A DNA stretch of 64,000 nucleotides from Candidatus Nitrosocosmicus franklandus (GTDB lineage: Archaea > Thermoproteota > Nitrososphaeria > Nitrososphaerales > Nitrososphaeraceae), in NCBI RefSeq assembly GCF_900696045.1, contig NZ_LR216287.1, forward strand, positions 992,001-1,056,000. The letters run 5' to 3'. Below the pieces are notes generated by a model. That model worked only from the letters and a program-made list of their open reading frames with translations. It did no database searches and was not told the origin of the DNA. This document shows positions 43,530-62,000 of this stretch, in pieces. How positions within the stretch are numbered: the stretch's first letter is position 1; every line of letters starts with the position of its first letter. A program made the position numbers and the translations under genes.

Positions 43530-44012
43530 CTAACTCTGAGCTGCTGCGCTGCTACCACTGTTTATTTGGCTTTGAATGTTGATGTTGTTGCCAGAGTCCA
43601 CCGTATCTCTACCGGATACTGCCAAGCTGTTCTGCTCGTTTGATTGAGATTGGCTAATGATTTGTTCTGCAGAATTACCACCTTTTCCATTATCATCATC
43701 ATCACCACCACCCTGTTGTGCTAATGCGTTGTTGCCAGTATTCTTTTGGTTCTGGAAGCTAAGGTTATTACATGACACAAATGTTCCACTTCCAGATATA
43801 CAGAGTGCGTTTTAGACAGAAGCTTGTGATTGAGATATTGTTTGCTGAGCTACATTTCATTTTTTCTTCTTTTTAGTTGCAAATGCATCATTATCCAGAG
43901 CCACCGATGGGCTGGTGATTAATGCCAAAGCGACCACTATTGCGATCGATGCGACAATGAATTTGCTTTTGTTTTTGTTGTGAATATTTTTTGTTTTGTA
44001 CATACCAGTCAT
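43530..44012 (-). pseudogene. Asn/Gln-rich secreted protein with two nonsense codons
   Basis: From ATG 44012 a single frame of 161 codons runs to the TAG at 43530 with only two internal stops: TGA at 43857-43859 and TAA at 43812-43814. The signal peptide is good (KSKFIVASIAIVVALALITS... ALDNDAFA). The mature part is Gln/Asn/Ser-rich (NVAQQTISQSQASV, NNLSFQNQKNTGNNALAQQ, GGGDDDDNGKGG, INSGSSAAAQS). Both stops could be C-to-T or similar point changes from Gln/Arg codons. With no frameshift this is either a young pseudogene or readthrough. The downstream ATG at 43778 would give a protein with no signal. Confidence 0.8.
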
Positions 44013-44221
44013 TCTTTAGAAAAAATATGTGGAATTTGCTAACTAGTTGCAATACTCTAATATTCTATCAATTTTAGAATTGTTAATGTAAAGATTGAAA
44101 GTATAAGAATCCAACATCCAATAGTACTGCTGTGTAGAATTTATTTCGATAAAGATATTTTAACCGGATTTTAAGAAAGAAGAAAATAATTTCTGCAAAA
44201 ATTCTTGGCCTAAAAAAAAGA

Positions 44222-44794
44222 TTATGGTTGTTTGAATCCTTCGGTGTATGTTATCCTCCTACCTGTTACTCCGGCTACAATGATTTGAATTCCAATAACT
44301 AGTAGTGCTATTGAGATTAATAGGCCTGCTACCACAGCTCCAAGTAATGGGGAGGCAAAAATAAGTATGGATACACCAATACCAAAGATACCTGCAGCAA
44401 TGCTAAAAGCCCGTGATCCTTTACCCACAGTTTTGTCACTTATACCATGAACTATTCTCGATATTCCATCAAATAACAGGGCGACGGAAATCAATATGAC
44501 AACAAATAGTGCGGCATCAATTGGAAAAGCCAATGCTATAATTGCAACTATCAATACAAGAATTCCTAATCCAATTGTGCTCCATCTAGATGAACCAGAT
44601 AATGGTGCAAAAATTCCAACCAATATTCGTTCAATCCCTGTAAAGAATAAAATTATGGCCAAAATATACACAACAGAGATAAAAGCAAACGCAGGAAAGA
44701 ATAATGCAATAATGGAAAGTATTAGTGCAATAATTCCTAAACCTATTTGCAGTGCTCTCATCCAACTAGGCGATTTTGATTCAGATACGGTCAT
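44222..44794 (-). CDS. HdeD-family (DUF308) membrane protein, second paralogue
   Basis: A 190-residue, six-helix membrane protein closely matching the gene at 35242-35805: SPSWMRALQIGLGIIALILS, ERILVGIFAPLSGSSRW, LLFDGISRIVHGISDK. The family is linked to acid or envelope stress in bacteria; no such evidence exists here. The two copies 9 kb apart suggest a duplication before or after insertion of intervening DNA. It appears monocistronic. Confidence 0.85.
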   Translation of the reverse strand: MTVSESKSPSWMRALQIGLGIIALILSIIALFFPAFAFISVVYILAIILFFTGIERILVGIFAPLSGSSRWSTIGLGILVLIVAIIALAFPIDAALFVVILISVALLFDGISRIVHGISDKTVGKGSRAFSIAAGIFGIGVSILIFASPLLGAVVAGLLISIALLVIGIQIIVAGVTGRRITYTEGFKQP

Positions 44795-45389
44795 ACTACG
44801 AAGAAGAGAACATGTGTATTTAAGGTTTATTTGTCAGGTAACAAGTTAGATTTACTTTATTTAATTATTTGGAATAATTGTAACAGTTTAAGGATTAACA
44901 AAAAAGGTTGACGATAGCACTCAAATATATTGAAGGAAAGATTGGATAATATTTGAATATATTTGAGGATTCTGACATTATTAAAAATAGTTTGTAAATA
45001 CATAATCTCTTCATAGAACTCAAATTATTTTTAAACAATGGATTAAATCGTGATTGATATGAATATTTGTGGGTGTGAATTGCAAACCTGATCAGGTTAG
45101 CTCGACATGGAATGTGGCAAAAACGTTAAAATTCAGATTCACCAAATTATCATTATCATTGTGAGTATCATTAAGTTCAACATGGTGAGAATAGGGTAAG
45201 TTTGTATAAGCAACAAATTGTTATCGTCAGTGTGGACAACTCTACGATAAATAAAGAAAATTACTCGATAGCCTTTGTTCAAAAAAAATCAAATCAGCTG
45301 CGTTTGTATTTGATTCTAATGGCAAATCATCCCAAGTATCATGTATTAACCTAGTCTTGCTGAATATGGAGGCTTGTCAAAATAAGGAT
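44795..45389. other. Spacer with a weak open stretch
   Basis: A plus-strand frame of about 64 codons without an ATG (IVIVSVDNSTINKENYSIAF...) ends near 45354. It may be decayed coding DNA. Confidence 0.3.
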
Positions 45390-45644
45390 CTAGGATGCCC
45401 TATCATTAGTATCAAGACTCTTCGTGTAGAAGTCAATTTTATCTTCTAATATCTTATGCTCATTCCTGATATTATTAAGCGAAATAGAATCTTGTCGATT
45501 GTGCTTACGAACTCCTATCACAGGTCCGCTGCAATAATCACATATATCTAAAATTACGTCATAGTAAACCTCTTTCTGTTTGTCAAGCGTAACTATTTTT
45601 AATGGCATAATTACGATCGGTGTGTTACATATACGACACTTCAT
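45390..45644 (-). CDS. Small zinc-ribbon protein
   Basis: An 84-residue protein with two Cys pairs, MKCRICN at the start and DICDYCSG at about 34-41, making one zinc-binding site. A charged helix follows (NNIRNEHKILEDKIDFYTKSL). It is probably cytoplasmic and could bind nucleic acid or protein. No family assigned. Confidence 0.65.
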   Translation of the reverse strand: MKCRICNTPIVIMPLKIVTLDKQKEVYYDVILDICDYCSGPVIGVRKHNRQDSISLNNIRNEHKILEDKIDFYTKSLDTNDRAS

Positions 45645-46450
45645 ACATACTAAATAGTGATTACTGCTAATAAACCACTATAAGTACAGAATATTTCAGG
45701 TTACAATTACTTTGATTTCTATTATTACGTCTTTCAAATAATAATACCTACCATATAGACTGCGTATCAAGTTGCTGTCCATCCTATGATCAACATTTAG
45801 CAAGAATATTCGATTCAGTTGGCAGGGCAAAAGGTAAGAAGTAATACTGCTACCACCTAAGAAACTACACAAAGGAAAGAACTGTTAAATAAATATCAGT
45901 AATAAATTTCTTTGTTGGGATCAATATTCTATAGATCGTATTATTCTAATCCTGTATGCAGTTCATACCAAAATCCGAGACATATACTTGAGTAGATTGG
46001 AGACATCTAAAGCCCTTAAAACGCATCCAACCATAATACGTTAATTATTATATCAGCCCCTTTTTAAGAAAAAATTAACAATCGTAGGTAGATGGCTTTA
46101 TTCGTAAACAATCTCCAGCGTAAATAATAAATTGTCAACTCTCTCTGGCAGTTAATATATAGTTTATCTTAACAGAGTATCGGTTTACTCTTGAAAAAAA
46201 TCCTTTTTTAGTAACCAAAGTTTATAATAACTGAAACGTATTTTCTAGAGCATGGTATTACAAAATCCTCAGATTCTATTGTATTAGATTATGAGCCGAT
46301 TTAAATCCATAACTAAGGGATTATATTATGGGGAGAGACATCATTTGACTGCATTAATTAGAATCAGGCGGACGGGGATCAGAAATAGTAAATACAAATA
46401 GAACTCCCTTATATCTAGGGGCTGCAGCATGTACCGGTATTGCAGGGATT
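45645..46450. other. Long spacer
   Basis: About 806 bp. Its 3' end (from about 46357) is open in frame with the next gene and encodes a likely membrane helix. Nothing else supported. Confidence 0.4.
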
Positions 46451-46756
46451 TTGCATCTTATGTTTGTTCCAAGCTCTATTCCTGCAGGTATCCAATATAC
46501 GGCGATATTTTTGATTTCGGGCCTGGCACAGCTTTTTTGGGTTTTACCAATGGCAAGAAGATGGGGCAGGATTTGGTATGTTATCGGATTTGCGGGTACG
46601 GCTGTGTTAGTGGGATTAACTGGTTATGTGATTATAGAATCGATTAAGAATCCACAGATAACGCCGCCGGGTGTACTTGAACTGGCAATTATGATAGAAA
46701 TATTCCAGATATTATACGTCATAATCACTGGAATAGTCATATTTGCTAGAAGATAG
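46451..46756 (+). CDS. Multi-span membrane protein with an unclear start
   Basis: A 101-residue frame starting at TTG 46451, with three membrane helices (QYTAIFLISGLAQLFWVLP, WYVIGFAGTAVLVGLTGYVII, AIMIEIFQILYVIITGIVIF). The same frame is open upstream to about 46357 and encodes NTNRTPLYLGAAACTGIAGI, which looks like a genuine first helix. No ATG, GTG or TTG precedes that part. Either the true start was lost by mutation, or a rare start codon is used. Function unknown. Confidence 0.6.
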   Translation: MHLMFVPSSIPAGIQYTAIFLISGLAQLFWVLPMARRWGRIWYVIGFAGTAVLVGLTGYVIIESIKNPQITPPGVLELAIMIEIFQILYVIITGIVIFARR

Positions 46757-47428
46757 TATTTGCGTATCACAAGCTGGACCAACTGATAGAATAAACATGC
46801 AAGATTGAGTTTGCAATCGTTATAATCGGTTACTTACCATCTGAAGCTTTTTTGTATAAACCAGTTGTGTTAAGGATACTTTTCCTTATATAGTATATAC
46901 AACTAATTAGCATGATTTTAAATTCCTTATTTTAGCACCGGTAGGATACTTACACGCGAACACCATTCAAGAATAATGGACATTAAACAATTTGAAAACA
47001 AATCTCTGGAAATCGTTTGAATTATGAAAAAATAATAGTATTAAGATCATGCACATAAACAATAATTTTGATGTTTAATCTTTAATGATAATTCTGCTTT
47101 TCGCATTTATTTTTTTAAAAATACATACAAGTTCTTATGCCATTGTTCTTGTTTCTTCTTTACATTTTTTAGTCATCTTTTAACTGAAAAAATATTTTTC
47201 TCAAGCATCCATTCAACAATATATATAGATGCATCGTCAAGTCTAAAGCATATACCATTCTATGTTTAACAGATAAAATAGTAAATTACACAAGATAATT
47301 GAAGATACTGTTTTTTCTACACTATTTTTTATAAATGAACATAAATGTTTGGATTAAAACACCTAGTGACTAGTAAAGTGGAAAACAATAGTGGTAAACA
47401 CATATACGTGCTACATAATCGGATAACT
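46757..47428. other. Spacer
   Basis: About 672 bp. TTTTTTATAAATG near 47323-47335 resembles a box A for the downstream gene. Nothing else supported. Confidence 0.4.
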
Positions 47429-47797
47429 ATGTCTGAATATATACGTATTAGAGCCCTATTTACCATTGAAAAAGACAATGTTGAACAATATAAAGAGCTA
47501 ATGAAAGAAATGAGCAATATGGTTGAGACCCATGAACCAACTACATTAGTATATGAGGTTTATTTTAACGAAGATGGGACAAAATGTATGGTTCACGAGA
47601 CATATGTAGATTCTACTGCGGTATTAGCCCATAACTTCAGCACTGCTTCAAAAACAATTCTTCCCAGAATATTCAAAATATCAAAATTGGTTTCTCTGGA
47701 TGTTTATGGTAATCCCAATAGTGAATTAAAAAAGCTGTTAAAAAGATTTAATTCACAGATATTTACCTTGTATACCGGATTCGATAGGAAAAATTGA
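47429..47797 (+). CDS. Antibiotic-biosynthesis-monooxygenase-like (quinol monooxygenase type) protein
   Basis: A 122-residue ABM-fold protein from ATG 47429 (MSEYIRIRALF). An upstream ATG at 47345 adds 28 residues that fit no domain. The ferredoxin-like fold shows in RALFTIEKDNVEQYKELMKEMSNMVETHEPTTLVYEVYFNEDGTKCMVHETYVDSTAVLAH. These small dimers often act as monooxygenases on quinols or remain uncharacterised. Stands alone. Confidence 0.7.
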   Translation: MSEYIRIRALFTIEKDNVEQYKELMKEMSNMVETHEPTTLVYEVYFNEDGTKCMVHETYVDSTAVLAHNFSTASKTILPRIFKISKLVSLDVYGNPNSELKKLLKRFNSQIFTLYTGFDRKN

Positions 47798-48652
47798 AAA
47801 GATTTTATCAATATTATGTTTTGACGAATTTCATCAAGAATATTGCATAAACACCAATAGATACTAATTAATTAAAACAATATGAATTACACTGATTATA
47901 TAGATGAATCAACAATTATCCTATTCCAATTGTCTGGAATTTTTTCTGCATACAGAACAGAAGATCTTTACCATATCTGATGCCAATAGAATTTGAGTAA
48001 ATACTTTGGCAATGAAACCTATAGCAAATATTATATTTCCATCTACTAGAATATTACTTATACTGGATATTTTACCATGAGAATAGAACTAGGTGTTTTC
48101 AGCATATGTAGTCCTAAGTATATTGCAACATTTATTTGTTTACATCTATAAGTGTTTCAATAAACGATCTTAGTACATCTGTTATTTTAAATGGTTACGA
48201 ATTAAGATTTTTAGTGTCCTGTATAAATTTAGAAGAGTTTGATAATAAGGTTTGAGAACGTTGCCCAGTTGTATCTAAATATAAGATTATAATTCACAAG
48301 CCATATAGTGATTTGACATGATCGTATTCAAAATAATAATCACAAAAAATGAATATAGCCTTTTTAGCGCACGATCTTAAAGTGCATTTGGATTAAAAAG
48401 CATACTAAAGTTTCTCCTTAATTATTTCGATTAAGCGAAATAATCTTTGATTCGGATTGTCTGATTCATTATTCAAATTAATCCTCTAGCATTAATACTA
48501 ATAATAGTAATAATCATAATATATACATTTTGTGAGTTGTATTCACATATGCAACAATAGATCTCCAATAAAGAAACTGTATTTTAATTTGTTTAGATCG
48601 TCTACTTCTCAAAGTATAAATAAGATCATTTAATATTAATAGAACGACAAGA
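47798..48652. other. Long spacer
   Basis: About 855 bp. It contains the hairpin at 48421-48444 and AAAGTATAAATAAG near 48610-48623, a good box A for the hydrolase gene. Only short frames (about 30 codons near 47882-48000) occur. Confidence 0.4.
48421..48444. terminator. Hairpin with a 9-bp stem
   Basis: ATTATTTCG - ATTAAG - CGAAATAAT, a perfect 9-bp stem followed by CTTTG. It lies in a long spacer, so whether it terminates transcription is uncertain. Confidence 0.35.
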
Positions 48653-49645
48653 TTGAAGTTAAGAAGTCAACTTATGGGGTATTTACTAGTGGTAATAATA
48701 TTACTGAATATCATGATAATTACTCAAATATTTATTATGTTACCGGCATACAGTAGCATAAATCAGGATTCTCATAATCCATTCTTAGCTGCCCCTTCGT
48801 TTAAGGCAAAAGCAACTATTTTAGACAACATGTCATCAAATTATGTTACTTTATCGGATATGATTATGGCCTATAAACAAATGGGTAATCCAGATGGCAG
48901 ACCGATTATGCTGATAACAGGAGCCAGTTCTACAATGGATATGTGGAATCCATTGTTGTTGGAGGCCCTGATCTCGGCAAACTACAAAGTTATAATTTTT
49001 GAGAATCGAGGAGTTGGCGAATCTACTGCAGGGATAAAAGAGCTGTCCATTAATCAATTCGTAAACGACACCGTAGGTCTCCTTAATGCATTGGAGATAA
49101 ACAAAACCGATATCTTGGGTTGGTCTATGGGAGGGTTTATTGCACAGCAACTAGCAGTAACAAATCCACAGCTAGTTGCAAATCTTATTTTGTATGCTAC
49201 AAGTTGTGGAGGTTCGAATGACAGGCCAACTCCCCCTGAAATAGTAGCGATTAACAAGAATGCATCTATGTCTCAGTCACAAAAAATGCAAAAACTTGCA
49301 CCCATGTTCTTTGCTCCTCCTAGTTGGTATGATGCCCACCCAGATTTCACTACCTACTTTCCTATTCCTAAGGAATATCCAATTCCACGACAAATTCACA
49401 TACAACAATTAGATGCCTCATCAACTTGGGCGGGCACATGTGATGATCTTTCAACCATCACCAAACCTACATTGATCATAGTTGGAGCAAACGATGATCC
49501 AGCACCAGATTCTTTGACCTTAGCGGAGAAAATTCCAGGATCATGGCTTGTTCGTATAGAAGAGGCAGGGCATGCTTTAATGTACCAACATCCCAACGAA
49601 TTCAATAAGGTATTGCTAACCTTTCTAGACATTAATAGGGAATAG
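48653..49645 (+). CDS. Exported alpha/beta hydrolase
   Basis: A 330-residue protein. TTG 48653 gives a signal peptide with a charged start (MKLRSQLMGYLLVVIILLNI). ATG 48674 is a shorter option that still keeps the hydrophobic core. The hydrolase fold follows: LITGASSTMDMW (oxyanion loop), then the nucleophile elbow GWSMGG with S158, D281/D282 in GANDDPAPD and H307 in EAGHAL, the catalytic triad. It is probably an extracytoplasmic esterase or lactonase; substrate unknown. A box A lies about 30-43 bases before the TTG. Confidence 0.85.
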   Translation: MKLRSQLMGYLLVVIILLNIMIITQIFIMLPAYSSINQDSHNPFLAAPSFKAKATILDNMSSNYVTLSDMIMAYKQMGNPDGRPIMLITGASSTMDMWNPLLLEALISANYKVIIFENRGVGESTAGIKELSINQFVNDTVGLLNALEINKTDILGWSMGGFIAQQLAVTNPQLVANLILYATSCGGSNDRPTPPEIVAINKNASMSQSQKMQKLAPMFFAPPSWYDAHPDFTTYFPIPKEYPIPRQIHIQQLDASSTWAGTCDDLSTITKPTLIIVGANDDPAPDSLTLAEKIPGSWLVRIEEAGHALMYQHPNEFNKVLLTFLDINRE

Positions 49646-49876
49646 CAGGCTAGAAATAACTATCACATACTCAACAAATTATAGAGCATAACGATTTTGT
49701 ATATGACTAGTTATTCATCGCCAGTGTTTGAAACAACATTGAGCGCAGTAGGAACGCAACCAAATTAAATTCTTGATGGTTACAAAACTTCAAAACCAAT
49801 AACGGTAATTTAATAGTAGCAAAAACTAAGAAGAAAAGGTTTTTTGAGTTAGGGTTCGCAGCGTCTGACGGTCTCC

Positions 49877-50464
49877 TCAGGTAGAATATAATTTTTTGAC
49901 CTCTGCAGACCTTTTTACCCAGTCAGGGGGTAATCGATTGGCTAGAACGGCTTCAAGTCGATCTAGATAGGCATGCCAACCAGGAGCGAAAGCTAATGCC
50001 GTTGATTTCGTGAGGTAGCTGTGAGTTACAATAAGTATTGAATCTAAGTCGTCATTCTGCTTGATTTCCCAACGGATAACCGATTTCGGTTCCCCATTAG
50101 GAAACATTTGGTTAGGAGCAATAAACCATTCATATTCAAATACACTATAACGTTCATACACAAGAACTTTTCCAGTAACACGGGATCCGGACACAGTGTT
50201 TATAAGTTCAATAGTTCCGTCTTTGTAACCATTGAACGTTCCTTCGTAATTAGGTAACCATTTGAATACTTCATTTTTATCCGTAATTGTCTCCCAGATC
50301 CGTTCCTTTGAATGCTTAATGTTTCTTTCGAACTTTATCATTCCATACTGTTCTTCAATATATACTGTTCCCTTAGATTCGGTATTTCTTATCTCACTAT
50401 TTTGTTTCTCAGTAGTAGACAATTTCTGTAGGACTTTTCTATTTGTTGTTTCAATCTCTTTCAT
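49877..50464 (-). CDS. SRPBCC (AHSA1-like) domain protein
   Basis: A 195-residue soluble protein. After a polar N terminus, the START/Bet v1-like fold reads IKFERNIKHSKERIWETITDKNEVFKWLPNYEGTFN, then WFIAPNQMFPNGEPKSVIRWEIKQ and the long C-terminal helix AFAPGWHAYLDRLEAVLANRLPPDW. This matches the Hsp90-activator-homologue group, which binds hydrophobic ligands. It diverges from the Lrp-type regulator at 50559 with 94 bp between, so that regulator may control it. Confidence 0.85.
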   Translation of the reverse strand: MKEIETTNRKVLQKLSTTEKQNSEIRNTESKGTVYIEEQYGMIKFERNIKHSKERIWETITDKNEVFKWLPNYEGTFNGYKDGTIELINTVSGSRVTGKVLVYERYSVFEYEWFIAPNQMFPNGEPKSVIRWEIKQNDDLDSILIVTHSYLTKSTALAFAPGWHAYLDRLEAVLANRLPPDWVKRSAEVKKLYST

Positions 50465-50558
50465 AACCTAATATAATCTATTAAGATACTTATCTTTGGT
50501 GGAAGCATAACTCCCAAAATCGGACAACTTTATAAAGAGATATCGCAATATTTAGATA

Positions 50559-51530
50559 ATGAATGAGGACGAAGGAACAGCGGTTCTTGATAGAACTGAT
50601 CTTACTATCCTTTCAACATTAGCTAGAGACAGCAGATCCTCTTATAACAGCATAGGCTCGAGGGTTGACCTTACATCAAAAAGTGTAAAGGCGCGAGTCA
50701 AAAAGATGATACATAAGCGAGTCATAGAAAAGTTTGTAGTTAGGGTTAATCCAGCGGTTTTTGAATTTAAGGTATTTATTGTACTCGTAAGAACGAGTAA
50801 TGGAATAAATAAAGACGATGTCATTAGGCGTATTAAACAACTTAGCGACATTGCATATTATGTGCATCATATGGGAAGGACTTGTGTGGCGGCTTTAATC
50901 ATCAAAAAACCACTTGACGATATATTTGTTCGATCGCTAAATCGTCACTTGCTGCCAGCAACTATTGTGAGTAGCTTTGTTTTAGAAAGCCGCGTCAAAC
51001 CAATTTACCTAAGTGAAACAGATTTGAGAATAATAAAGTGTTTGGTACTATCTGGTGCAAGGACGGAAATAGCAGATATTGCCAAAGAAGTTGGTATATC
51101 GGAAAAGACAACAGCTAGACGACTTGCAAGGATGAAGGATGCAAACATGTTAGATTTCTCAATCCAGTGTAGTCCACCTGTAATGATAGGATATATTCAA
51201 TTCGCTATTCCTATTATCACCACAAAATCTCATCGTCAAAGAGTACTGGAGCGGATGTATTCCGAATTTCAGGAGAATATTTTATACAGCCCTAGTGTAA
51301 TTGATTCGGAAGATAGACTGACTTTTGTACTATTTAGTGAAAATGTATTTACGATTGATTCGATTTTATCCAAGGTAAGTTCTTTTGAAGGGGTTAAAAG
51401 TGCGGATGTATATATTCTTACAAAATGGCAATATTACGATGATTGGATAATAAGAGAAATTAACAACAGGATTTCACTACGACAACCACTTTTATATGGA
51501 TCTATTAAAATTAATAATGTCATAAATTAA
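50559..51530 (+). CDS. Lrp/AsnC-type regulator with two HTH domains
   Basis: A 323-residue protein with two Lrp-type helix-turn-helix units. The first (about 10-57) reads LDRTDLTILSTLARDSRSSYNSIGSRVDLTSKSVKARVKKM. The second (about 152-198) reads LSETDLRIIKCLVLSGARTEIADIAKEVGISEKTTARRLARM. Each is followed by a ferredoxin-like segment (KVFIVLVRTSNG and IQFAIPIITTKS) resembling the RAM domain. Such double-HTH regulators are typical of Thaumarchaeota. It is divergent to the SRPBCC gene. Confidence 0.88.
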   Translation: MNEDEGTAVLDRTDLTILSTLARDSRSSYNSIGSRVDLTSKSVKARVKKMIHKRVIEKFVVRVNPAVFEFKVFIVLVRTSNGINKDDVIRRIKQLSDIAYYVHHMGRTCVAALIIKKPLDDIFVRSLNRHLLPATIVSSFVLESRVKPIYLSETDLRIIKCLVLSGARTEIADIAKEVGISEKTTARRLARMKDANMLDFSIQCSPPVMIGYIQFAIPIITTKSHRQRVLERMYSEFQENILYSPSVIDSEDRLTFVLFSENVFTIDSILSKVSSFEGVKSADVYILTKWQYYDDWIIREINNRISLRQPLLYGSIKINNVIN

Positions 51531-51650
51531 GAGGTTTTCAACCATTCAGATTTAGCTTTTTATAATAATATTGATAAAGTAATAAAACGGATATGCAATA
51601 GTTTTATTTAACTGAAACTTTAGATTTAAAAAAGATAGAACGTTCTGAAC

Positions 51651-51696
51651 TAGCTTTGAGCTGCTACGTTGTTACCAAGATTTTCTTTGTTTACGA
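51651..51696 (-). pseudogene. Tiny C-terminal relic related to the Asn/Gln-rich secreted protein
   Basis: The minus strand reads NKENLGNNVAAQS followed by TAG, similar to the INSGSSAAAQS end of the gene at 43530. DNA around GAGCTGCTACG also resembles it. Only about 15 codons, so homology is tentative. Confidence 0.25.
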
Positions 51697-51728
51697 AGTT
51701 TCTTCCATATTCAAGTATTTTTAGTGTA

Positions 51729-51931
51729 ATGTATTTTTGCTTTATTGATACTTTTGATGACATAGAAAAAATAAAGGGATTTGTTAACTACTCGCAAAAC
51801 TCTATAAAGTACTTTTTAGTTCTAAACCAAGAAATCCCAAACTAGTAGAATCCTATGACATTGAACAGAAAGACGAATTCATCGCTTTGATAAATCATAT
51901 TTCTGCTTATTATCAGATAGTTTGGAAATAA
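51729..51931 (+). pseudogene. Small gene with a single-base deletion
   Basis: The ATG at 51729 gives MYFCFIDTFDDIEKIKGFVN, then NSIKYFLV. The sense then continues in another frame as SKPRNPKLVESYDIEQKDEF and ALINHISAYYQIVWK to TAA at 51929. The span of 203 bp (3n+2) fits one lost base near 51820-51830. Probably a soluble protein; family unknown. Confidence 0.4.
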
Positions 51932-52178
51932 GTTAGGAACATGCATGGTGTGAGAGGTCAAGTCTCAGTGGGTAATAGGATTTTACTTAAGTTGATGATT
52001 TTGATAAAATATGCCTTTTAATCCCTAATATTAGGGGTTTACAGAGGGTATTTAAATAGGCATGTTGACAGTTTGTAGATAATACTTGGGAATTGAGGTA
52101 TCAAATTTGCCTTGGTTGAATATGTCTATACAATACTGCTGTTAGACATTTAAAACCCATGTTCTAAATCAAGTTTAT

Positions 52179-52460
52179 ATGGATTTTGAATTTTCACCCA
52201 AATGGCTTGCTGTGCTTTTTGTCATAGCTGGTGTAGTGGTAGTTTTTATGCTTATGGGCGGTTCATTAACACAACTATTTAGTTCGAGTACACAAGAGAG
52301 CGTTCTGGTTCAAATAAAGCAAGGAAATACATGTGTGATAGAAGCCTCAGATGGAATTCCACGTACTATAGACAATTGTCCATATCAACTAGGTGACAAT
52401 ATCACAATAAGTTACAAGCAGGGATTGCCCTCATTGGAAGGTCATCAACTTGCACAGTAA
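52179..52460 (+). CDS. Small membrane-anchored protein
   Basis: A 93-residue protein with one N-terminal helix (LAVLFVIAGVVVVFMLMGGS) and an extracytoplasmic beta-rich domain with two Cys (about 51 and 67). NTCVIEASDGIPRTIDNCPYQLGDNITISYKQG suggests a small disulfide-linked fold. A box A-like CATTTAAAACC lies about 25-35 bases upstream. A perfect 19-bp hairpin follows 67 bp after the stop. Family unknown. Confidence 0.65.
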   Translation: MDFEFSPKWLAVLFVIAGVVVVFMLMGGSLTQLFSSSTQESVLVQIKQGNTCVIEASDGIPRTIDNCPYQLGDNITISYKQGLPSLEGHQLAQ

Positions 52461-52526
52461 TTAGAAACCGGCAGAATTTATTTTTCCTTTCCCCAGAAGA
52501 TACTTTCTCAATGAGGATTTTCAATT

Positions 52527-52570
52527 TCAGTACTGTGATCCTTTTCAATCAAAAAGGATCACAGTACTGA
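52527..52570. terminator. Perfect 19-bp stem, 6-base loop hairpin
   Basis: The left arm 52527-52545 (TCAGTACTGTGATCCTTTT) and right arm 52552-52570 are exact reverse complements around the loop CAATCA. The right arm is followed by TTTG. It stands 67 bp after the stop of the gene at 52179. It is far longer than needed for a terminator and could be a small mobile relic or a protein- or RNA-level signal. Confidence 0.7.
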
Positions 52571-52726
52571 TTTGATTAGGATTGTAGAATCTTTGTTGTA
52601 TAGACTATTTCTTTTTCACATCGTGAGACAAAAAGGAAAATAAAAAGAGAAGAAATCATCTCAAATTCTAAACTAACAATATCAACAGTACACGAGATAA
52701 CCTTTGCAAGATGTCAATGAATAGAC

Positions 52727-53086
52727 TCACCACTTTTCATATGTTGGAGTATGATCATGATGCTGTTGTCTAGCAAGCGAATAATTACTAGGATTAAAAT
52801 AAACTGACTCACCATCATTTAGAAATGGACAACCACTGGGAGCTTAAATTTAATGCCGTTTCCCTCATATTTCATATTTCTAGTAAGGTGGATATCTCGA
52901 TCAATCAAAGTTGTTGATGAGCATACAAGTAGATCCAGCACATAGCTTTGAATTTGAAGGCTGGGAGGCTGGTAGATCAGCATTTCCATCATCGTAAACA
53001 AAGGAGTATTTATCCCTACCCACTAATTCTTCTCTATAGCAACAAATCAAATAATCAAACAAAAATGAACGGTTAATAAGTAACAA
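52727..53086 (-). pseudogene. Decayed secreted-type protein gene in three frames
   Basis: Successive protein-like blocks on the minus strand change frame. The first is REELVGRDKYSFVYDDGN continuing DLPASQPSNSKLCAGSTCML; the next is DRDIHLTRNMKYEGNGIKFKL; the last is GCPFLNDGESVYFNPSNYSL to TYEKW and TGA at 52727. The Cys and beta patterns suggest a compact extracellular domain. Two indels would explain the breaks. The protein family is unknown. Confidence 0.5.
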
Positions 53087-53257
53087 AAAATGTAAACATA
53101 GGTTTTTCTGAACTATGTGTCAGAAGTCCTGTATTGTGAATCCATATTATAGTTCAGATACAAAGTTGATAATTAAAAGATCTCAATTCCTTCATGTCCT
53201 AAACCTGTTCCTCATCATATTATAAAGGAGATTTTGTATGCTTAGATAATAACAGCA

Positions 53258-53295
53258 TCAGCATGATCATTCATCATCAGCATGATCATTCATCA
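53258..53295. repeat. 19-bp tandem repeat after the propeller gene
   Basis: TCAGCATGATCATTCATCA occurs twice head to tail at 53258-53276 and 53277-53295. Each copy contains the palindrome ATGATCAT. It lies 37 bp after the propeller stop and may be part of its 3' end signal. Confidence 0.85.
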
Positions 53296-53331
53296 TCATC
53301 GTAATAGCATTGCAATAGTATCATTTCATCA

Positions 53332-55134
53332 TCATTTAATTTCTAGATCCACTATTCTTGAAACAGTAATTTCTTTACCATACTTAGCGCTAACCGTTAA
53401 AGTGTAGTTTCCTGGAGTTGAATCCGGAGTTGGACTCACATTTAGCGTTGTCTTTAACTGTGGTGATGGCCCGATTTCACCTGATGGCTTATTTTTGACA
53501 GGTATCGAGTCTTGACTGAAGCTACTTGTTAGATTGTCTAATTTGCCGCTCTTAGTGATTGATGATGTTACATCCGTTGTTATATACACTGTATCGTTGA
53601 TATCATTTGTAGAAGTAGTATCGTTACTATTGGTTATAGTCGAATTGATAACCTTACCAAAGTTTACCGGATTCTCGTAAATATAAATGTCTATAGAATC
53701 GCTCTTGTTGTTTTTACTGTCTAATATTATCTTATCCTTTGAAATCTCTAATGTTATTGGTATCTGATCTAGTCTATCTTTCGTAATTACACCTAGTTTA
53801 TTTTCAGTCCATTCAGTAAACCAAATTGACCCGTTGTTATCAAACGTAAATCTAAGAGGATTTGAAGAATTTACCCACAAGGGGTTTTGAGATGGAATAT
53901 AATATTCCACTAGTGTTTTATTCATAGGATCAAAAGATGCGATAGCGTTACCATAATGTTCGTTAAACCATATTTTTCCATCTCTATACTCGTTATAGTA
54001 TGGCAATGTCGTCAAATTACCAGTAGCAGAAGGATTGGAAGTAGCATATTGTTTTATCTCCCCTGTATTCGGATTTAATGAGAAGAAAAGATTTGTAATA
54101 TGGTTGTTAGCCCAAAGAAGTCCTTTTTCGTCCTCAGCAATACTGAATGGAACACTATGGGTATAGGTCACATCATGAATGGTTAGTGCTTGTGCTGTCA
54201 CATCATATCCAATAATATGTCCTCCTTCGGGAAAGATGGCAGTTGAAAACCATAGCGTCTCGTTTTTCTCAGTAGGAGAAGGATTAGTAGTATCAGTGTC
54301 ATTATAATTGTCATTGGTATTAGTATTACTAAAGCCAAAACCATTCGATATTGGTCCCATAGTTTGAAAGTCAATTTGTCGTGACATATCTAATTCTGAA
54401 ATACCCTCTGTTGTATTGGTTATCACCTTGGAAGGCTCAATAAATCCAAGTCTATTGCCAAAAAATTGGGTAAACCATACGTTGCCATTAGAATCAAAAG
54501 TAATTGATTGTGGATATCCCCCTTCTTCTAATAATCTGTAATTTTCAAACTTTTCTTCTTTTACAAAATACTTCCAAATAGAATTACTGAGTTCATCTGT
54601 AAACCACAGATCACCATTTCTATCAAATTTCATATTCCATATCATAGAGCCCATGATTCTAGTTTGTTCTGGCCAATTTGGTATTTTTATAATATCATCA
54701 AATTCTGATGTTGTGGTATTAAATACCAACAAACTACCCAGTTTTCCAGAGGCGATCCAGATATTATTATCCTTATCTACAGCAAGACCCACAGGCTGAC
54801 TACACTGAACAGGAATAACAAATTCTGTAACATACAGATTAGAATTCGTAGCATTATTTCCACAAAATCTCATTTTATCCTCAGAAGACATCGTCGCATT
54901 TGTAGATGCTTCGTGGTGCATTTCTGACATATGTTCTGAATGAGATGTTTGAGTCGTGGGTGTTGTTGCGTAGGCAAATAACGGATCAATTATGGCTTGC
55001 GAACTGTTATAAATAGAGAAATTAATTAATCCAAATGTTACTACACCACAAATAATAAATACTACTACAATAGCAAATTTCGTCAAAATCATTATACTTG
55101 AAAGACTGTCTTCAACATTAATATTTATTCTCAT
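53332..55134 (-). CDS. Membrane-anchored streptogramin-lyase-like beta-propeller protein
   Basis: A 600-residue protein with one N-terminal membrane helix (about 14-38), a His/Met-rich linker (HSEHMSEMHHEAS) and a Vgb/NHL-type propeller at about 105-450. Repeated blades read GLAVDKDNNIWIASGKLGSL, FDRNGDLWFTDELSNSIWKY, FDSNGNVWFTQFFGNRLGF and FDNNGSIWFTEWTENKLGV. The C-terminal 150 residues form a beta domain ending TPGNYTLTVSAKYG, like Ig/NEW3 folds. Many related genes occur in Thaumarchaeota, with no shown lyase activity. It faces the outside of the cell, and the His/Met linker may bind copper. Confidence 0.85.
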   Translation of the reverse strand: MRININVEDSLSSIMILTKFAIVVVFIICGVVTFGLINFSIYNSSQAIIDPLFAYATTPTTQTSHSEHMSEMHHEASTNATMSSEDKMRFCGNNATNSNLYVTEFVIPVQCSQPVGLAVDKDNNIWIASGKLGSLLVFNTTTSEFDDIIKIPNWPEQTRIMGSMIWNMKFDRNGDLWFTDELSNSIWKYFVKEEKFENYRLLEEGGYPQSITFDSNGNVWFTQFFGNRLGFIEPSKVITNTTEGISELDMSRQIDFQTMGPISNGFGFSNTNTNDNYNDTDTTNPSPTEKNETLWFSTAIFPEGGHIIGYDVTAQALTIHDVTYTHSVPFSIAEDEKGLLWANNHITNLFFSLNPNTGEIKQYATSNPSATGNLTTLPYYNEYRDGKIWFNEHYGNAIASFDPMNKTLVEYYIPSQNPLWVNSSNPLRFTFDNNGSIWFTEWTENKLGVITKDRLDQIPITLEISKDKIILDSKNNKSDSIDIYIYENPVNFGKVINSTITNSNDTTSTNDINDTVYITTDVTSSITKSGKLDNLTSSFSQDSIPVKNKPSGEIGPSPQLKTTLNVSPTPDSTPGNYTLTVSAKYGKEITVSRIVDLEIK

Positions 55135-55450
55135 GTAACTCTAGAATACAAGGAAAGGTGATCAGTACAAAATGCTCACCTGTAGAAGAGATACTAGTTG
55201 GAAGAAGATTCCTAATGATTCTTTAATACACCGATGTAGGCTAAAATCAATTCACCTAACTATAAAGGTCCTATAAAACTAGCGCCATGATAAGTCAAGT
55301 TAGAGAATTCCAAATTCTGTCAGACTAAGATTAAGATACGAGCCACTACCTTTCTGATTGATCACTATGAGAAAAAAGGATTTTTATCAAGAATGAGTCT
55401 TTGTTTGTAAAGTCTAAATCTTATAATAACTCGAATTTCCATATAGTAAT
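55135..55450. other. Divergent promoter region
   Basis: About 316 bp between divergent genes. ATCTTATAATAAC near 55419-55430 is a good box A for the small HTH gene. Confidence 0.4.
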
Positions 55451-55615
55451 TTGATTCAAGATAGGAAATATACAAAGAAAAAGCAAGAGGTATTAAAATT
55501 CATAAAAAAACACAAGGGAGTAGATCATTCGTCTATCTTAAATGAAGTGAATGTTGATTATGATACTTTAATGAAGATCATCTCTGACTTGCGCAGAGAA
55601 GGGCATTTAGATTAA
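55451..55615 (+). CDS. Small winged-helix-like protein
   Basis: A 54-residue frame from TTG 55451: LIQDRKYTKKKQEVLKFIKK, then HSSILNEVNVDYDTLMKIISDLRREGHLD. Three helices with the last as recognition helix fit an HTH core. A box A about 21-32 bases upstream supports a leaderless TTG start. Function unknown; regulatory role likely. Confidence 0.55.
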   Translation: MIQDRKYTKKKQEVLKFIKKHKGVDHSSILNEVNVDYDTLMKIISDLRREGHLD

Positions 55616-55990
55616 GGCTAAAAGAATAGACCTTCAATATCGTCAGAGAAAAATGAATTTTGATAATTCAATAATCTAGTGAAAATAATTGAATCAATTC
55701 ACTAAAATTTTAAAAGAATGACAGTTTAAATGAAACAAACTATATTAGAATTAAGATCAAAGTAATTGTATAAAGAACGCAATTGGTCAGGAAAATTTCA
55801 GGTTTTGAATCTTTCTAAACGTTACTATCAAGAAACAAAATAAATCTTAAACATTTAGAAATTGAGTATCGATTCCTATGAATGTTCCTTCTGATGCCTC
55901 CGGCCTACAGAGTCCACGTAGTAAATTTGATTTTGTATGCATTGAATTTGGGTTTGCTCGAGTCAATTACACTAATTCCGGCCCAAATAG
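55616..55990. other. Spacer with a short ATG frame
   Basis: An ATG frame at 55878-56000 (40 residues, MNVPSDASGLQSPRSKFDFV...) is possible. No promoter or family support. Confidence 0.3.
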
Positions 55991-56215
55991 ATACTGTTAA
56001 TCGTAGTAGTATCGTATGAACATAATAAATTTAAGCCAAATGCATTGACATCTAGACAAGGTCATGATCCCAAACATAGAACACTAGATATCAAATATTT
56101 TTATCGATACATTGATGAATCATACTACATTTACCTACAAACAGCAAATCACTATCTCATAGGGCATAAAGATATGGATAATTCCCAAATAGATTATAAG
56201 CAGATGGAGTCATGA
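55991..56215 (+). pseudogene. Open 74-codon frame without an ATG
   Basis: The frame after TAG at 55988 runs 74 codons to TGA at 56213. It is strongly protein-like: SYEHNKFKPNALTSRQGHDP, then IKYFYRYIDESYYIYLQTAN and GHKDMDNSQIDYKQMES. Only a TTG in the middle could start it. Most likely the 3' part of a truncated or frameshifted gene. Identity unknown. Confidence 0.4.
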
Positions 56216-56598
56216 TATAAATTTGAGATAGTTATGGCACTAACTTTTGGTTATCAACAACAGTGGATCTTGGTACCTGACTAAATAAATCAAGATATTC
56301 CTTTCTTAAGGTTTTATAGGCGCTTAAAAAAAATTTAGATTACGAAATTTAATCCTCGGTCCTGAAAAGAAAAATGGAGAAGACAATACTAGCTGACGAT
56401 TAGTTGTGGAATAAGATGAGGATTATTTAGGTACAAGTTGATAACATCAATATTTAGTACTCATAATCAAGTATACAATTAAAATTTTGACAATAACCTT
56501 GAGAATATCAATAATAACAATACTAGCTATTACTCTATTTCTAACAAGAGAAGGAATTTGGAAGATATCCTTAATTCGAGGTAAAATACTTTCAGTAT
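56216..56598. other. Spacer before the DUF1059 gene
   Basis: About 383 bp; nothing supported. Confidence 0.4.
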
Positions 56599-56793
56599 AT
56601 GACACTTAGCATTAACTGCAAGGATGCGGGCGATCCTGTATGTACCCATACAATGTATGGAGAAACAGAAGAAGAGCTATTTGAAAATGCAAAGAAGCAT
56701 GGGATAGAAGTTCACGGCTATACGGAAGAGTCGTTTAATGAAGAGATGTCCAAAAATCTAGAGCATTTTAGAAAAGCAATAAGAAGTACTTGA
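56599..56793 (+). CDS. DUF1059 protein
   Basis: A 64-residue protein matching the DUF1059 pattern along its whole length. It reads SINCKDAGDPVCTHTMYGETEEELFENAKKHGIEVHGYTEESFNEEM, that is C...C near the start and a helix with H-x-x-x-x-H. It is a small cytoplasmic protein, common in archaea, of unknown role. The two Cys and nearby His could bind metal. Monocistronic. Confidence 0.85.
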   Translation: MTLSINCKDAGDPVCTHTMYGETEEELFENAKKHGIEVHGYTEESFNEEMSKNLEHFRKAIRST

Positions 56794-57012
56794 ATTTTCT
56801 TAATCCCTTATTTTTTTGTTTACTCGAATTGTTTAGATTTGTATAAAAAACGTAATGACTAAATAGCGGTAAAAAACGTCCATTCTGTGATCTTATAATT
56901 TGATAACATTCTATTGTGATATATAAATAGATAGATAGATAGTAATTATATAGAAAATCGTCTAATAAATCTTAACGTTCCTTGACATAGTTATTTTGAT
57001 ACGAGATGTTTA

Positions 57013-57384
57013 TTACTCATGCTTTTTCGCATAGTCCCCCATACCAGTAAAATCTATTGAAACACATGGCTCGTCTCCCACCACCCAAGCATCATGTCCT
57101 GGCGGTACTACTGCGGTATCTCCAGGTCCGCCTTCAATTTCAGTACCATCATCCATTCTGACCTTCATTCTTCCAGAAATAATGACCGATGTATGTGGAG
57201 CTTGGCAGCTATCTGTATTAACTAATGGTTTTACACACGTACTCCAACTCCATCCTGGTTCGAGTGTTGCTCTACCGATTATCACATTCCCCAGATTTAC
57301 AATCTCTACTTTTCCTTTTTCAAATGTTCTTACTTCATCAGGAGATTCAAAACTTTTTGCCAAAATTTTTGTTGTTGTTGACAT
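57013..57384 (-). CDS. Cupin-domain protein
   Basis: A 123-residue single cupin. Motif 1 region is PGWSWSTCVKPLVNTDSCQAPHTSVIISGRMKV and motif 2 is GPGDTAVVPPGHDAWV. The usual metal His pair is reduced: only APHTS, E (in EIEGGPGD) and GHD are evident. It may bind a small ligand or metal. The family spans sugar isomerases, dioxygenases and binding proteins, so no substrate is named. It stands alone between DUF1059 and the DM13 gene. Confidence 0.8.
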   Translation of the reverse strand: MSTTTKILAKSFESPDEVRTFEKGKVEIVNLGNVIIGRATLEPGWSWSTCVKPLVNTDSCQAPHTSVIISGRMKVRMDDGTEIEGGPGDTAVVPPGHDAWVVGDEPCVSIDFTGMGDYAKKHE

Positions 57385-57623
57385 TTATTTTCAAATTTAG
57401 ATTGTATTATTTTGATTATAAGCATTGTTCCAAATCCGGTCCAATTCTACTCCAAATTAATGAATAAAACCAAATAATTGAGTTCCATACTAGATTTCTA
57501 ATAAAGTAACAAGAATTAGATCAAATCCTAATACGTCCCTCATGTCAAAAAGTAAGATAAGAAAAACAAAAATTTTGACTTGGCATATAATTTAATTGGT
57601 TATATTTTCTATTGGTTACATTT

Positions 57624-58277
57624 TTATTCCTGATGTTTGAGGTCGGCACTACCAAATAGAACTGAAAATGCCTTGCACCATATCAATACAGTATCGTATT
57701 TTGACAAGTCAGTCCCTAGTGGAATGTTGTAATTTTGATTTCCATTATTGGCTTTAAGTTTCCCAAGATTGACGAAATCGTGTGAGTTATTGTCAGTTGA
57801 CAGGTACACATATAGATCGGGTCCGTTAGTTACCTTTAAATTCTCCAGTCTAAGGATACTTGCAGCATTCTCCTCAAGAGGTATTATTTTCGCTATACCT
57901 TCAGCATTATGAATTCCATCGTTAGCTCCTATAAACGATCCTGAAATTGATGAATAGTTTAGTTCAGATGAACCTGAAATCTCATCCATGGATTCATTAA
58001 TGGCTATAATATTACCATTCTCTGAATTGGCATACTGACTCATCAATTCATTCTTCTGGAAGGTGTTCATATTTTGTGCGACTTTGACCCTCGCCTCTTC
58101 ACTCATCACACTAAAATTTTCAAAAGAGACCAACGCCACAGAATTTGGAGGAAAGGGTTCATTTATTTCTGTAGATATAAACAATGGCGAAACTAGGTAC
58201 ACTGTTACCACAGACGCAATTAGGATTACAACAAGATATGAAATTTTTTTAAGTTTTTTGTTTCCCGTGTTTTTCAC
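57624..58277 (-). CDS. Membrane-anchored DM13-domain protein
   Basis: A 217-residue protein. One N-terminal anchor (about 10-34) precedes a linker and a DM13 domain (about 112-212). The domain reads SGSFIGANDGIHNAEGIAKI, LRLENLKVTNGPDLYVYLS and YDTVLIWCKAFSVLFGSADL; the conserved Cys is C201. DM13 domains are proposed to take part in electron transfer to secreted proteins through that Cys. It lies 192 bp after the redoxin gene on the same strand, consistent with a shared extracytoplasmic redox role. Confidence 0.88.
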   Translation of the reverse strand: MKNTGNKKLKKISYLVVILIASVVTVYLVSPLFISTEINEPFPPNSVALVSFENFSVMSEEARVKVAQNMNTFQKNELMSQYANSENGNIIAINESMDEISGSSELNYSSISGSFIGANDGIHNAEGIAKIIPLEENAASILRLENLKVTNGPDLYVYLSTDNNSHDFVNLGKLKANNGNQNYNIPLGTDLSKYDTVLIWCKAFSVLFGSADLKHQE

Positions 58278-58469
58278 AAAAAGATAATTCTAATCAAAGG
58301 TTATAAGCAATTTTCCATATTATATCCAGATCTATTCCATGTGTAATGTTCTGATGATCCCTCTTTCTTTCTAAGATTCAACAAATGATTTTGAACGGTC
58401 ACGATTCTTCAAAAAGTATTAAAAATATTTCGATAGATTCATGTACAGGTTAAAAAAATAGTTGGTGTT

Positions 58470-59807
58470 TTAGCCAAAGGTAAATGTATAGAGTTTGAAC
58501 CCACTCCCTTCTATGTCGAGTATTATAGATCTTGGTTGATAGTCATCATAAAGACCAACATTATATAATCGCTGTTGGTCCACAATGACATTCCCGTTCT
58601 CATCTAGATCAAGAGCACGGTTTGTGCTGTCCATGTTTAGTCCCTTATATTCAACTATGTTGTTCTTTTCGGCACTCTCGCTATTGTTTTTGATACCGTT
58701 ATCAATATCGGTTTTGTTATTGAATTCTTTGATACCCAATTTTTGTCCGTCACCCGATGCAACAATGTTAATCGACTTAGCATAGTACGTAAGGATGACT
58801 TTACCTTTATCACCGACCAGCTCCACATTATCAGCATTATTTTTCCAAGTTCCATCCAAATATACCAAATTCGGTATGAAAGAGCTGTTGCCACCACTAC
58901 TTGTATCCAACTTATAAGATACATTCTTATTCGGTTGAAATCCCTCACTGTTTCCCAATGGGGATCTTGCATTTTGATATCCCAGGTAAATTTCTGGTGT
59001 CATATTTTGGCTAAAGTCTACATGTTTAAGTCTCTGCGAAATTGGCGATGCAGATTCGTTTGTCAACTTCCCTTTATCAAGATCAAATGAAATCTCAGTC
59101 TTGTTTTCTAAAGCGGCTTTTTCTGCAAGCAGCGTTTGTATTGTCTTTTCGGTTTCATTATATCCACCTTCTCCAATGTGATCTTCGCGGATATATCCTT
59201 GGGAATCTATTAGATAGTGTCTTGGCCAATAATTGTTTTTGTAAGCATTCCATGTCTTATGATCACTATCAAGGACTATAGGGTATTTAATTCCAAACTC
59301 GTTTACCGCATTCTGGACATTTTGAATGTTTTTCTCAAAGTCAAATTCTGGAGAATGCACACCCAAAATTACAAAACCCTGATCTCCGTATCTATCATAC
59401 CATTCATTTAGATATGGGATAGTTCTAATACAATTTATGCATGTGTAAGTCCAAAAGTCAAACAGAACTACACTTCCTCGCAGATCTGCAAGTGTTATGG
59501 GTTTGCCGTTTTCAGTATTGATGTAGGCAGTAATCCCTTGTAGTTCAGGGGCAAGTGGGTAGTTACTTTTGTCAATCTCAGTAAAAGCGGTTTTGTTTAA
59601 CTTTACTGTTATAATGTTTCCAGTCTTAGTAGACAGATTATCTACGGAATCTTCTAATTGTTTTTGTTGAAGATAACTTTGAGAAGGACTACTGAAATAA
59701 TTAAAATAAATTCCAAACCCAACAATTAATGAAATGACAGCAACTGCTGTCAAGATTGCACTTAGATTATCTCTATTTAAGGACCTTGTGATTTTACCTT
59801 GCGTCAA
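58470..59807 (-). CDS. TlpA/DipZ-like membrane-anchored redoxin
   Basis: A 445-residue protein. A signal anchor (about 15-37) precedes a thioredoxin-fold domain (about 85-230). The active site is C123-I-N-C126 in FWTYTCINCIRTIPYL, with the cis-Pro loop WPRHYLID (P195). A roughly 200-residue C-terminal domain (LGYQNARSPLGNSEG..., LEGSGFKLYTFTFG) resembles the carbohydrate-binding-like end of DipZ. It receives electrons from CcdA (34 bp upstream in the operon) and reduces extracytoplasmic disulfides, or acts as a peroxidase-type protein. Spacing and order match split DipZ. Confidence 0.9.
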   Translation of the reverse strand: MTQGKITRSLNRDNLSAILTAVAVISLIVGFGIYFNYFSSPSQSYLQQKQLEDSVDNLSTKTGNIITVKLNKTAFTEIDKSNYPLAPELQGITAYINTENGKPITLADLRGSVVLFDFWTYTCINCIRTIPYLNEWYDRYGDQGFVILGVHSPEFDFEKNIQNVQNAVNEFGIKYPIVLDSDHKTWNAYKNNYWPRHYLIDSQGYIREDHIGEGGYNETEKTIQTLLAEKAALENKTEISFDLDKGKLTNESASPISQRLKHVDFSQNMTPEIYLGYQNARSPLGNSEGFQPNKNVSYKLDTSSGGNSSFIPNLVYLDGTWKNNADNVELVGDKGKVILTYYAKSINIVASGDGQKLGIKEFNNKTDIDNGIKNNSESAEKNNIVEYKGLNMDSTNRALDLDENGNVIVDQQRLYNVGLYDDYQPRSIILDIEGSGFKLYTFTFG

Positions 59808-59841
59808 AATATTATCAACCTCATTTTGCTCCTCTTTTTCA

Positions 59842-60675
59842 TCAACTTACAATAAGCTGTTCTACGAAAGGGATGTTGACTACGAGTAAGGATAATTGAT
59901 CAAAAAAGATCAGTATTCCAACTATTATCAATATGCTTCCCATAACTAGATTAAAGTATTTTAGATGTCTTGTTATTTTTCTTATTGCTCCAGTTGCACG
60001 TGAAAAAAATGCGCCAGTAATTAGAAAGGGAATTCCAAGGCCTAGAGAATAGGCAAGTAATAGGTTGTATGCAGTACCCGGATTTGTGGCTGCTAATGTA
60101 AAGGCGCTACCCAGTATGGGCCCTACACATGGGGTCCATCCCGCTGCAAAAGCAACTCCAAATACAAATGACGTTATATAACTAGTTTTGAACTTGGGAA
60201 TTTTCGTGAATTTCTTTTCAATGTTGAGACGAGTAATCTTGAGAGAAAGAATAAGATAAGCTCCAAAAGCAGCAATAATGACTCCACCTACATATGATAA
60301 ATATTGTTGAAAATCACTTCCGATTGAAGTGGCAAGAACGCTGTTTAGTACTACACCCAATACTGAAAAAACCAGGGAGAATCCCAAGACGAAGTAAATG
60401 GTATTAATGAAAATATTTATGCGAGCCTTTTTTGAAACGTAAATTAATTGATTACTAATACCATTTAGATTACTACTAGTTTCTTCACTATTACCCTGTA
60501 TTCCATGTATCCCACCTTGATTGCCATCCCTACTATTATTATTATTCATAGTCTCTCTTATTGCGGAGCTGGAAAGGTAAGACAAAAATCCAGGTATGAT
60601 TGGCAAAATGCATGGTGATAGAAAAGAACCAAGACCTGCAAGAGCTGAAATTAATATTCCCGTTTCTATTGCCAA
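59842..60675 (-). CDS. ccdA: CcdA/DsbD-type membrane thiol transporter
   Basis: A 277-residue protein with six membrane helices. The catalytic Cys are C22 in GLGSFLSPCILPIIPGF and C183 in AAGWTPCVGPILGS. An unusual polar, Asn/Gly/Ser-rich loop (about 40-78) separates helices 1 and 2. CcdA carries electrons from cytoplasmic thioredoxin across the membrane. It sits directly upstream of its probable partner, the redoxin, with a 34-bp gap. Confidence 0.93.
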   Translation of the reverse strand: MAIETGILISALAGLGSFLSPCILPIIPGFLSYLSSSAIRETMNNNNSRDGNQGGIHGIQGNSEETSSNLNGISNQLIYVSKKARINIFINTIYFVLGFSLVFSVLGVVLNSVLATSIGSDFQQYLSYVGGVIIAAFGAYLILSLKITRLNIEKKFTKIPKFKTSYITSFVFGVAFAAGWTPCVGPILGSAFTLAATNPGTAYNLLLAYSLGLGIPFLITGAFFSRATGAIRKITRHLKYFNLVMGSILIIVGILIFFDQLSLLVVNIPFVEQLIVS

Positions 60676-60954
60676 TCTAGTGTCACCACCTTCTCTTCTC
60701 TTTTTGCAAAGCGAGTTTTTGTACTATTAGTTACCAACGTTAAAGCAATAACACAAGTCAAAAAGCTTTTGTCCATAGAAACGCTAGTCATAATATGCAT
60801 TAATAGTTATTTCCAGATCTATTCCAGATCTATTCCAAATGCTGAATTGAATTCCTTATTAAATAATGATTCAAGTGAAAATCAAAAGACGATACAAGTG
60901 GATCGTTTTTTCTAGCAGACAAGTAGTAAAATGGTTGAATGTTGAACTTGATAT

Positions 60955-61242
60955 TTATTCAAGAGTTATCTTGAGAAATATGGCTAAGCCAGCCATCTCA
61001 GCAATGGAAATAGCGAGTAGATAGGGCACAAGAAGATCCGAAAATAACATCGACATGGTAATATACGAATAAACGGAAATTAGGCTGTTTATCATAAGCA
61101 AGCTACAAAAGAAGATCAAACCCAGGGTAAAGTTGGCTTTGCTGGTCTGATACATTCTAGCAAATGTATAGATCAAAGCACCTAACAACCCCAAATTTAC
61201 CATATTAATAAGTGCGTTGACTGTCCCCATCCAAATATCCAT
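60955..61242 (-). CDS. Small multi-span membrane protein
   Basis: A 95-residue protein with three membrane helices (VNALINMVNLGLLGALIYTF, FTLGLIFFCSLLMINSLISV, LVPYLLAISIAEMAGLAIFL). It lies 81 bp after the ArsR-like gene on the same strand and 279 bp before ccdA, so it may be co-transcribed with the regulator. It has no catalytic motif. Similar small membrane proteins next to such regulators are common in archaea, with no known role. Confidence 0.65.
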   Translation of the reverse strand: MDIWMGTVNALINMVNLGLLGALIYTFARMYQTSKANFTLGLIFFCSLLMINSLISVYSYITMSMLFSDLLVPYLLAISIAEMAGLAIFLKITLE

Positions 61243-61323
61243 TTTAACTATATCGCATCTAACTTCAAAGTAAGCATTTATTTACTTATTTCCATATTTG
61301 TTCCACATCTACACAAAACTTGT

Positions 61324-61632
61324 TTATTTCGTTTTTTTTGATTGGTGAATTTTATCTACTACTTCTCTGAATGCTCCCATGTTAACCTCTAAATAATTTG
61401 ATATAAAATACAAAATACCATACTTTTCACCTTCTTTTGTAACTAAATTATTTTTTTCCAATACGTGCATATGATGCTGGATGGCTTTGTAATCGATTTT
61501 GATTATATCAGACAACTGATTGATATTGTATGGTTGCTCTATTAGCAATTCTATTATAGATATTCTATTCATTCCTCCTCTTGACCCAGCAAATAAGAAC
61601 CAAAACAATTTCTTCGCATTAGGGTCAGTCAT
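61324..61632 (-). CDS. ArsR-type winged-helix regulator
   Basis: A 102-residue protein from ATG 61632 (MTDPNAKKLFWF). The frame extends to 61764, but those 44 residues are hydrophobic and un-domain-like. The winged helix is clear: GGMNRISIIELLIEQPYNINQLSDIIKIDYKAIQHHMHVLEKNNLV. It lacks the CxC metal-binding motif of ArsR itself. It may control the membrane gene and the redox module that follow. Confidence 0.8.
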   Translation of the reverse strand: MTDPNAKKLFWFLFAGSRGGMNRISIIELLIEQPYNINQLSDIIKIDYKAIQHHMHVLEKNNLVTKEGEKYGILYFISNYLEVNMGAFREVVDKIHQSKKTK

Positions 61633-62000
61633 CATCCATCTATTTGTGTATCCAATTAATAGACAATCTAGATAATAAGTTTGACATGTTTTCTGTCTGG
61701 ATCCAAGGACAGGTATTAAATCTACTAAAACTAGGATCATCCACCTAGTAATAAGGCCCCACATTCCAAGATTATAGTGAATTCGTTGATCCGCTCCTGC
61801 GTAATAGTGTATATCATCTATTCATTTACCATGATTCTTAGTAAATGTATGAGCATGTGGAGTAAATCAAACTCCTTGTAATGGAGTGGGTAAAAGCTAT
61901 TTAGTGAGGAGGGATCGTTTCAAGGGATATCAAATAAGAGAATAAATTATCGCAAAATAGCAAAGGGTATAAAAATCAATGACTTGATAAACTCACTAAT
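61633..62000. other. Divergent promoter region
   Basis: About 368 bp between the ArsR-like and methyltransferase genes; nothing else supported. Confidence 0.4.

Follow-up and report, generated by a model that had tools for sequence, protein, structure and literature searches.

A perfect, single-copy 19-bp hairpin between convergent genes of Candidatus Nitrosocosmicus franklandus is probably a mutational product without demonstrated function

Two genes of Candidatus Nitrosocosmicus franklandus face each other across a spacer that contains an exact inverted repeat with a U-rich tract on either side. The locus lies in the window, by which we mean the whole stretch of 64,000 nucleotides of contig NZ_LR216287.1 that was analysed. 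Its features are given below, with identities to the orthologous site of the related genome G006.

52179..52460, plus strand: gene of a small protein of 93 aa with a hydrophobic N-terminal stretch, the upstream convergent partner
52477..52491, plus strand: U-rich tract TTTATTTTTCCTTTC, which probably terminates the 93-aa gene in the archaeal manner, judged from its sequence and from PMC8716108
52527..52545, plus strand: left arm of the perfect inverted repeat, TCAGTACTGTGATCCTTTT; 16/19 identical in G006
52546..52551, plus strand: loop of 6 nt; 6/6 identical in G006
52552..52570, plus strand: right arm; 10/19 identical in G006 without gaps, 12/18 with gaps
52630..52646, minus strand: U-rich tract (A-rich on the plus strand), candidate transcript end for the opposite gene
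53332..55134, minus strand: gene of a 600-aa beta-propeller protein, virginiamycin B lyase-like (Pfam Vgb_lyase, E 5e-27), the downstream convergent partner

The 93-aa protein had no Pfam family above the cut-off. Its family is multicopy in the genus, with 42 matches of varied closeness in 14 of 15 genomes, some of these being fragments of a single broken copy; this genome holds four, one with three internal stop codons. The same convergent gene order was found in G006 (locus L017) and at locus L101. Seven more loci were tested, of which two show places already included, and there the facing beta-propeller gene was not found within the stretch examined. In the spacer that follows the beta-propeller gene, at 53256-53298, a 19-bp unit CATCAGCATGATCATTCAT is repeated exactly, 2.3 times.

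The inverted repeat at 52527-52570 begins 66 nt past the stop codon of the 93-aa gene, and about 760 bp separate it from the end of the facing gene. Its arms (52527-52545 and 52552-52570) are complementary at 19 of 19 positions around a 6-nt loop, confirming the perfect 19-bp repeat that an earlier note on this DNA had claimed. The same note had called it unusually long and exact, and the statistics bear this out. The window's list of inverted repeats of at least 14 nt whose arms are separated by no more than 100 nt has 22 entries, and this was the only exact pair among them. We further surveyed 464 kb of the 2.84-Mb genome, namely the window and 20 evenly spaced stretches of 20 kb, for exact hairpins with a stem of at least 11 bp and a loop of 3-20 nt. 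Eleven were found, the longest being the present one and the runner-up having 14 bp; twice that length of first-order Markov sequence (928 kb) gave five, none above 13 bp. Folded as RNA, positions 52510-52590 reached −33.3 kcal/mol against a shuffle mean of −13.7 (sd 2.7, n = 200; z −7.3), and none of the 200 shuffles was as stable. The 19-bp hairpin is thus real and statistically remarkable.

It is also single-copy, as was found by the genome search for further copies of the arm that the earlier note had advised. Fifteen bp of the arm matched exactly at this site alone, once per arm. With up to three mismatches allowed, 80 sites were found for this 15-mer, i.e. the two of the element itself, two with two mismatches and 76 with three; the reversed control pattern gave 46 in the same search. 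Part of the excess over the control is a single 15-mer, TCAATAGTTTGATCC, present at eight places that correspond to the eight copies of a transposase-like segment. Outside this site, the 19-bp arm was not found with fewer than three mismatches in 15 genomes of the genus (the own genome and 14 relatives), nor did viral contigs contain an exact match. The hairpin is therefore not a repeat family.

The transposase-like segment, 301 bp long, has eight genome copies at 99-100% identity and one further match at 70%. In the window it lies within two overlapping reading frames at 2177-3066 on the plus strand, which we take to resemble an IS5-type transposase; this element was probably active recently.

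Among 61 genomes and the set of 15 genomes, the own genome aside, G006 was the sole relative aligning across the whole hairpin (E 5.6e-9, the next best of the 61 reaching E 0.007 over 26 nt). The alignment has about 80% identity over 516 columns and spans the gene end and the hairpin, the latter without any inserted or missing block. A second G006 match (63 nt, C1:70819-70881, 75%, E 2.6e-4) to 52546-52612, which takes in the loop and the right arm, was discounted as a copy: BLAST of that G006 locus at E ≤ 0.01 did not recover the weak match to 52546-52612, and no exact stem longer than 6 bp was found around it.

At the orthologous site the two arms have fared differently. Left arm and loop together are identical at 22 of 25 positions, whereas the right arm has 9 differences in 19 positions when BLAST aligns it without gaps, or 6 in 18 in a global alignment with 1-nt gaps. 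For the ungapped excess, Fisher's test gave p 0.016 against left arm plus loop (9/19 versus 3/25), p 0.016 against the flanks and p 0.08 against the left arm alone (9/19 versus 3/19). For the gapped one it gave p 0.13 against left arm plus loop (6/18 versus 3/25) and p 0.22 against the flanks, so that the asymmetry depends on the alignment chosen. The right arm of the window is closer to the reverse complement of the G006 left arm (16/19) than to the G006 right arm itself (10/19 ungapped, 12/18 gapped).

The G006 ortholog is itself an imperfect hairpin. Its arms form 11 Watson-Crick and three G-T pairs out of 19 without gaps, a total matched by 44 of the 14982 19-mers found at that locus, and 13 Watson-Crick and two G-T pairs out of 18 with gaps, equalled by 7 of 14982. 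Given the positions that had changed, this residual pairing was only mildly unexpected in the gapped alignment (0.025 with G-T pairs, 0.15 for Watson-Crick pairs). Two stem pairs differ on both sides and are nevertheless paired in both genomes (G-C to A-T and C-G to T-A). As RNA, the G006 fold was unremarkable (z 0.94 with flanks; z −0.17 for the bare 44 nt, where part of the stem forms).

We lean towards an explanation in which an old quasi-palindrome had its right arm rewritten from the left one by template switching in the lineage of the window. An imperfect inverted repeat was probably present already in the common ancestor with G006; during replication, a template switch inside the hairpin probably then used the left arm as the template for the right one, and a single such event would account for all nine ungapped right-arm differences. 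Template switching is reported both to create such hairpins and to perfect or repair them (PMC8794818). The present case resembles known quasipalindrome mutations in that a close, imperfect inverted repeat would have become perfect, with changes that cluster in one arm in the ungapped alignment: the arms are exact reverse complements at 19/19, and the orthologous site of the relative is an imperfect palindrome (14/19 pairs including G-T without gaps, 15/18 with gaps). It differs from them in its archaeal host and in that a comparison of only two species does not establish a direction or a single event. A second paper (PMC7202029) reportedly likewise describes template switching as making or perfecting hairpins. 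The asymmetry test is somewhat more favorable to template switching in the ungapped alignment, where in turn the pairing of the G006 arms is somewhat weaker.

Decay in G006 of an older perfect hairpin fits the data nearly as well, because there is no aligning outgroup and the arm asymmetry varies with the alignment. With G006 as the sole aligning relative, and G012 similar only over the start of the region, the perfect state cannot be polarised. The pairs changed on both sides would also be expected from the decay of a shared hairpin or from selection on structure. The other hairpins of the survey gave a divided answer. Four of the ten were sought in G006, six, including a 13-bp one in coding sequence, being outside this comparison. 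For two, the ortholog covered nearly all of the query; a third had none in G006, and for the fourth the sole match, of 32 nt, lay away from the hairpin. In the 14-bp hairpin of L090 one arm was nearly unchanged and the other more changed, a pattern in favor of template switching; the 13-bp hairpin of L087 was slightly altered without strong asymmetry, which counts against it.

Whether the hairpin serves the ends of the flanking transcripts has to be judged together with the two U-rich tracts. The plus-strand tract lies 17-31 nt past the stop codon of the 93-aa gene, ahead of the hairpin. It is retained in G006 and occurs in similar form in G012, whose similarity covers just the beginning of the downstream region, the tract included (local alignment score 39 to G006, reached by 0 of 300 shuffles, and 29 to the window, reached by 1 of 300); the copy of the gene in G005 has no comparable tract. 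The minus-strand tract at 52630-52646 is an 86% inverted copy of the plus-strand one over 14 nt and is kept in G006. According to PMC8716108, most archaeal terminators are U-tracts with no strict need for a hairpin, and a thaumarchaeal aCPSF1 ortholog cooperates with U-tracts in like manner. The neighboring tracts fit this type of terminator, with the difference that here a hairpin stands beyond the tract. As the retained tract precedes it, the hairpin is unlikely to be the main terminator, and little RNA would be expected over it between the two tracts. It does share with bacterial intrinsic terminators an intergenic stem-loop followed by three T and further T, and it passes a loose terminator scan. 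It departs from them in its 19-bp stem with G-C in seven of 19 pairs, its weak T tail TTTGATTAGG, its archaeal host and the better U-tract upstream. The doubt that the earlier note had cast on a simple terminator is upheld. That note had also held that a single copy with plain termination in the loop or tail would reduce the repeat to a terminator: the copy is indeed single, the termination half could be addressed by sequence, and the outcome speaks mostly against the more exciting readings.

A functional RNA hairpin, acting on both convergent transcripts as a 3'-end stabilizer or as a bidirectional aid to pausing or termination despite the weak tail, appears doubtful. The very stable fold, the convergent setting and the two pairs changed on both sides with pairing kept would be in line with it, and among the six terminator-like sites of 44001-64000 this was the only stem longer than 7 bp. 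However, these six sites do not exceed the 8.6 found in shuffles, the U-tract comes before the hairpin, and the fold in G006 is unremarkable although both genes have stayed in place there. The 260-nt stretches that follow other genus copies of the 93-aa gene were likewise free of exact stems longer than 9 bp (loop 3-11), among the regions listed, several of which are duplicate loci. Rfam gave no family at gathering score; its 12 matches at E ≤ 1, 11 of them on the hairpin, were all to microRNA models and far below that score, which we take to be what any long hairpin gives. The structured RNA element that had been suggested is possible but finds no support in Rfam or in the nearest relative.

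It seems improbable that the palindrome is bound, as double-stranded DNA, by a dimeric regulator or another palindrome-binding protein. The dyad is perfect and intergenic, and a gene with AsnC-type helix-turn-helix domains (50559-51530) ends about 1 kb upstream; on the other hand, the site occurs once, far from both gene starts, its dyad is inexact in G006, and the usual operator is shorter than 19-bp arms. Decidedly improbable is a combined scenario in which a single template switch newly made the hairpin, which then came to serve the convergent genes as a bidirectional RNA 3'-end element. Perfect inverted repeats are typical of mini-transposons, IS ends and recombination sites, and the genome does harbor the eight-copy transposase-like segment. 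A relic of this kind, as the earlier note had envisaged, is nevertheless most improbable and already largely refuted: no other site of the genome came within one mismatch over 15 bp, the 14 relatives and the viral contigs lack the arm at the thresholds given above, the absence of an inserted block relative to G006 leaves no empty site, and the nearly abutting arms offer no room for an element body. As to a recombination site, we found neither a second one nor any other support. As far as tested, the hairpin is not mobile.

All in all, the hairpin is most likely a largely ordinary feature: a copying slip would have turned a short inverted repeat into a perfect one. Its place between the two U-rich tracts, which probably end both facing transcripts, may explain why it persists. 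Papers on template-switch mutation reportedly, judging from a search listing, concern mainly E. coli, yeast and primates. Our literature search combining archaea and quasipalindrome returned nothing about archaea, judged by titles, and a further one, on template switching at inverted repeats in this archaeal group, had no hits. If template switching did perfect this hairpin, it would thus be a possible archaeal example of that mutation process; if the hairpin has since been recruited as RNA, a new RNA structure would have arisen in one step. Mainly, our data advise caution: finding a long, exact hairpin in an archaeal spacer does not by itself mean that a terminator, a transposon or an RNA gene is present.
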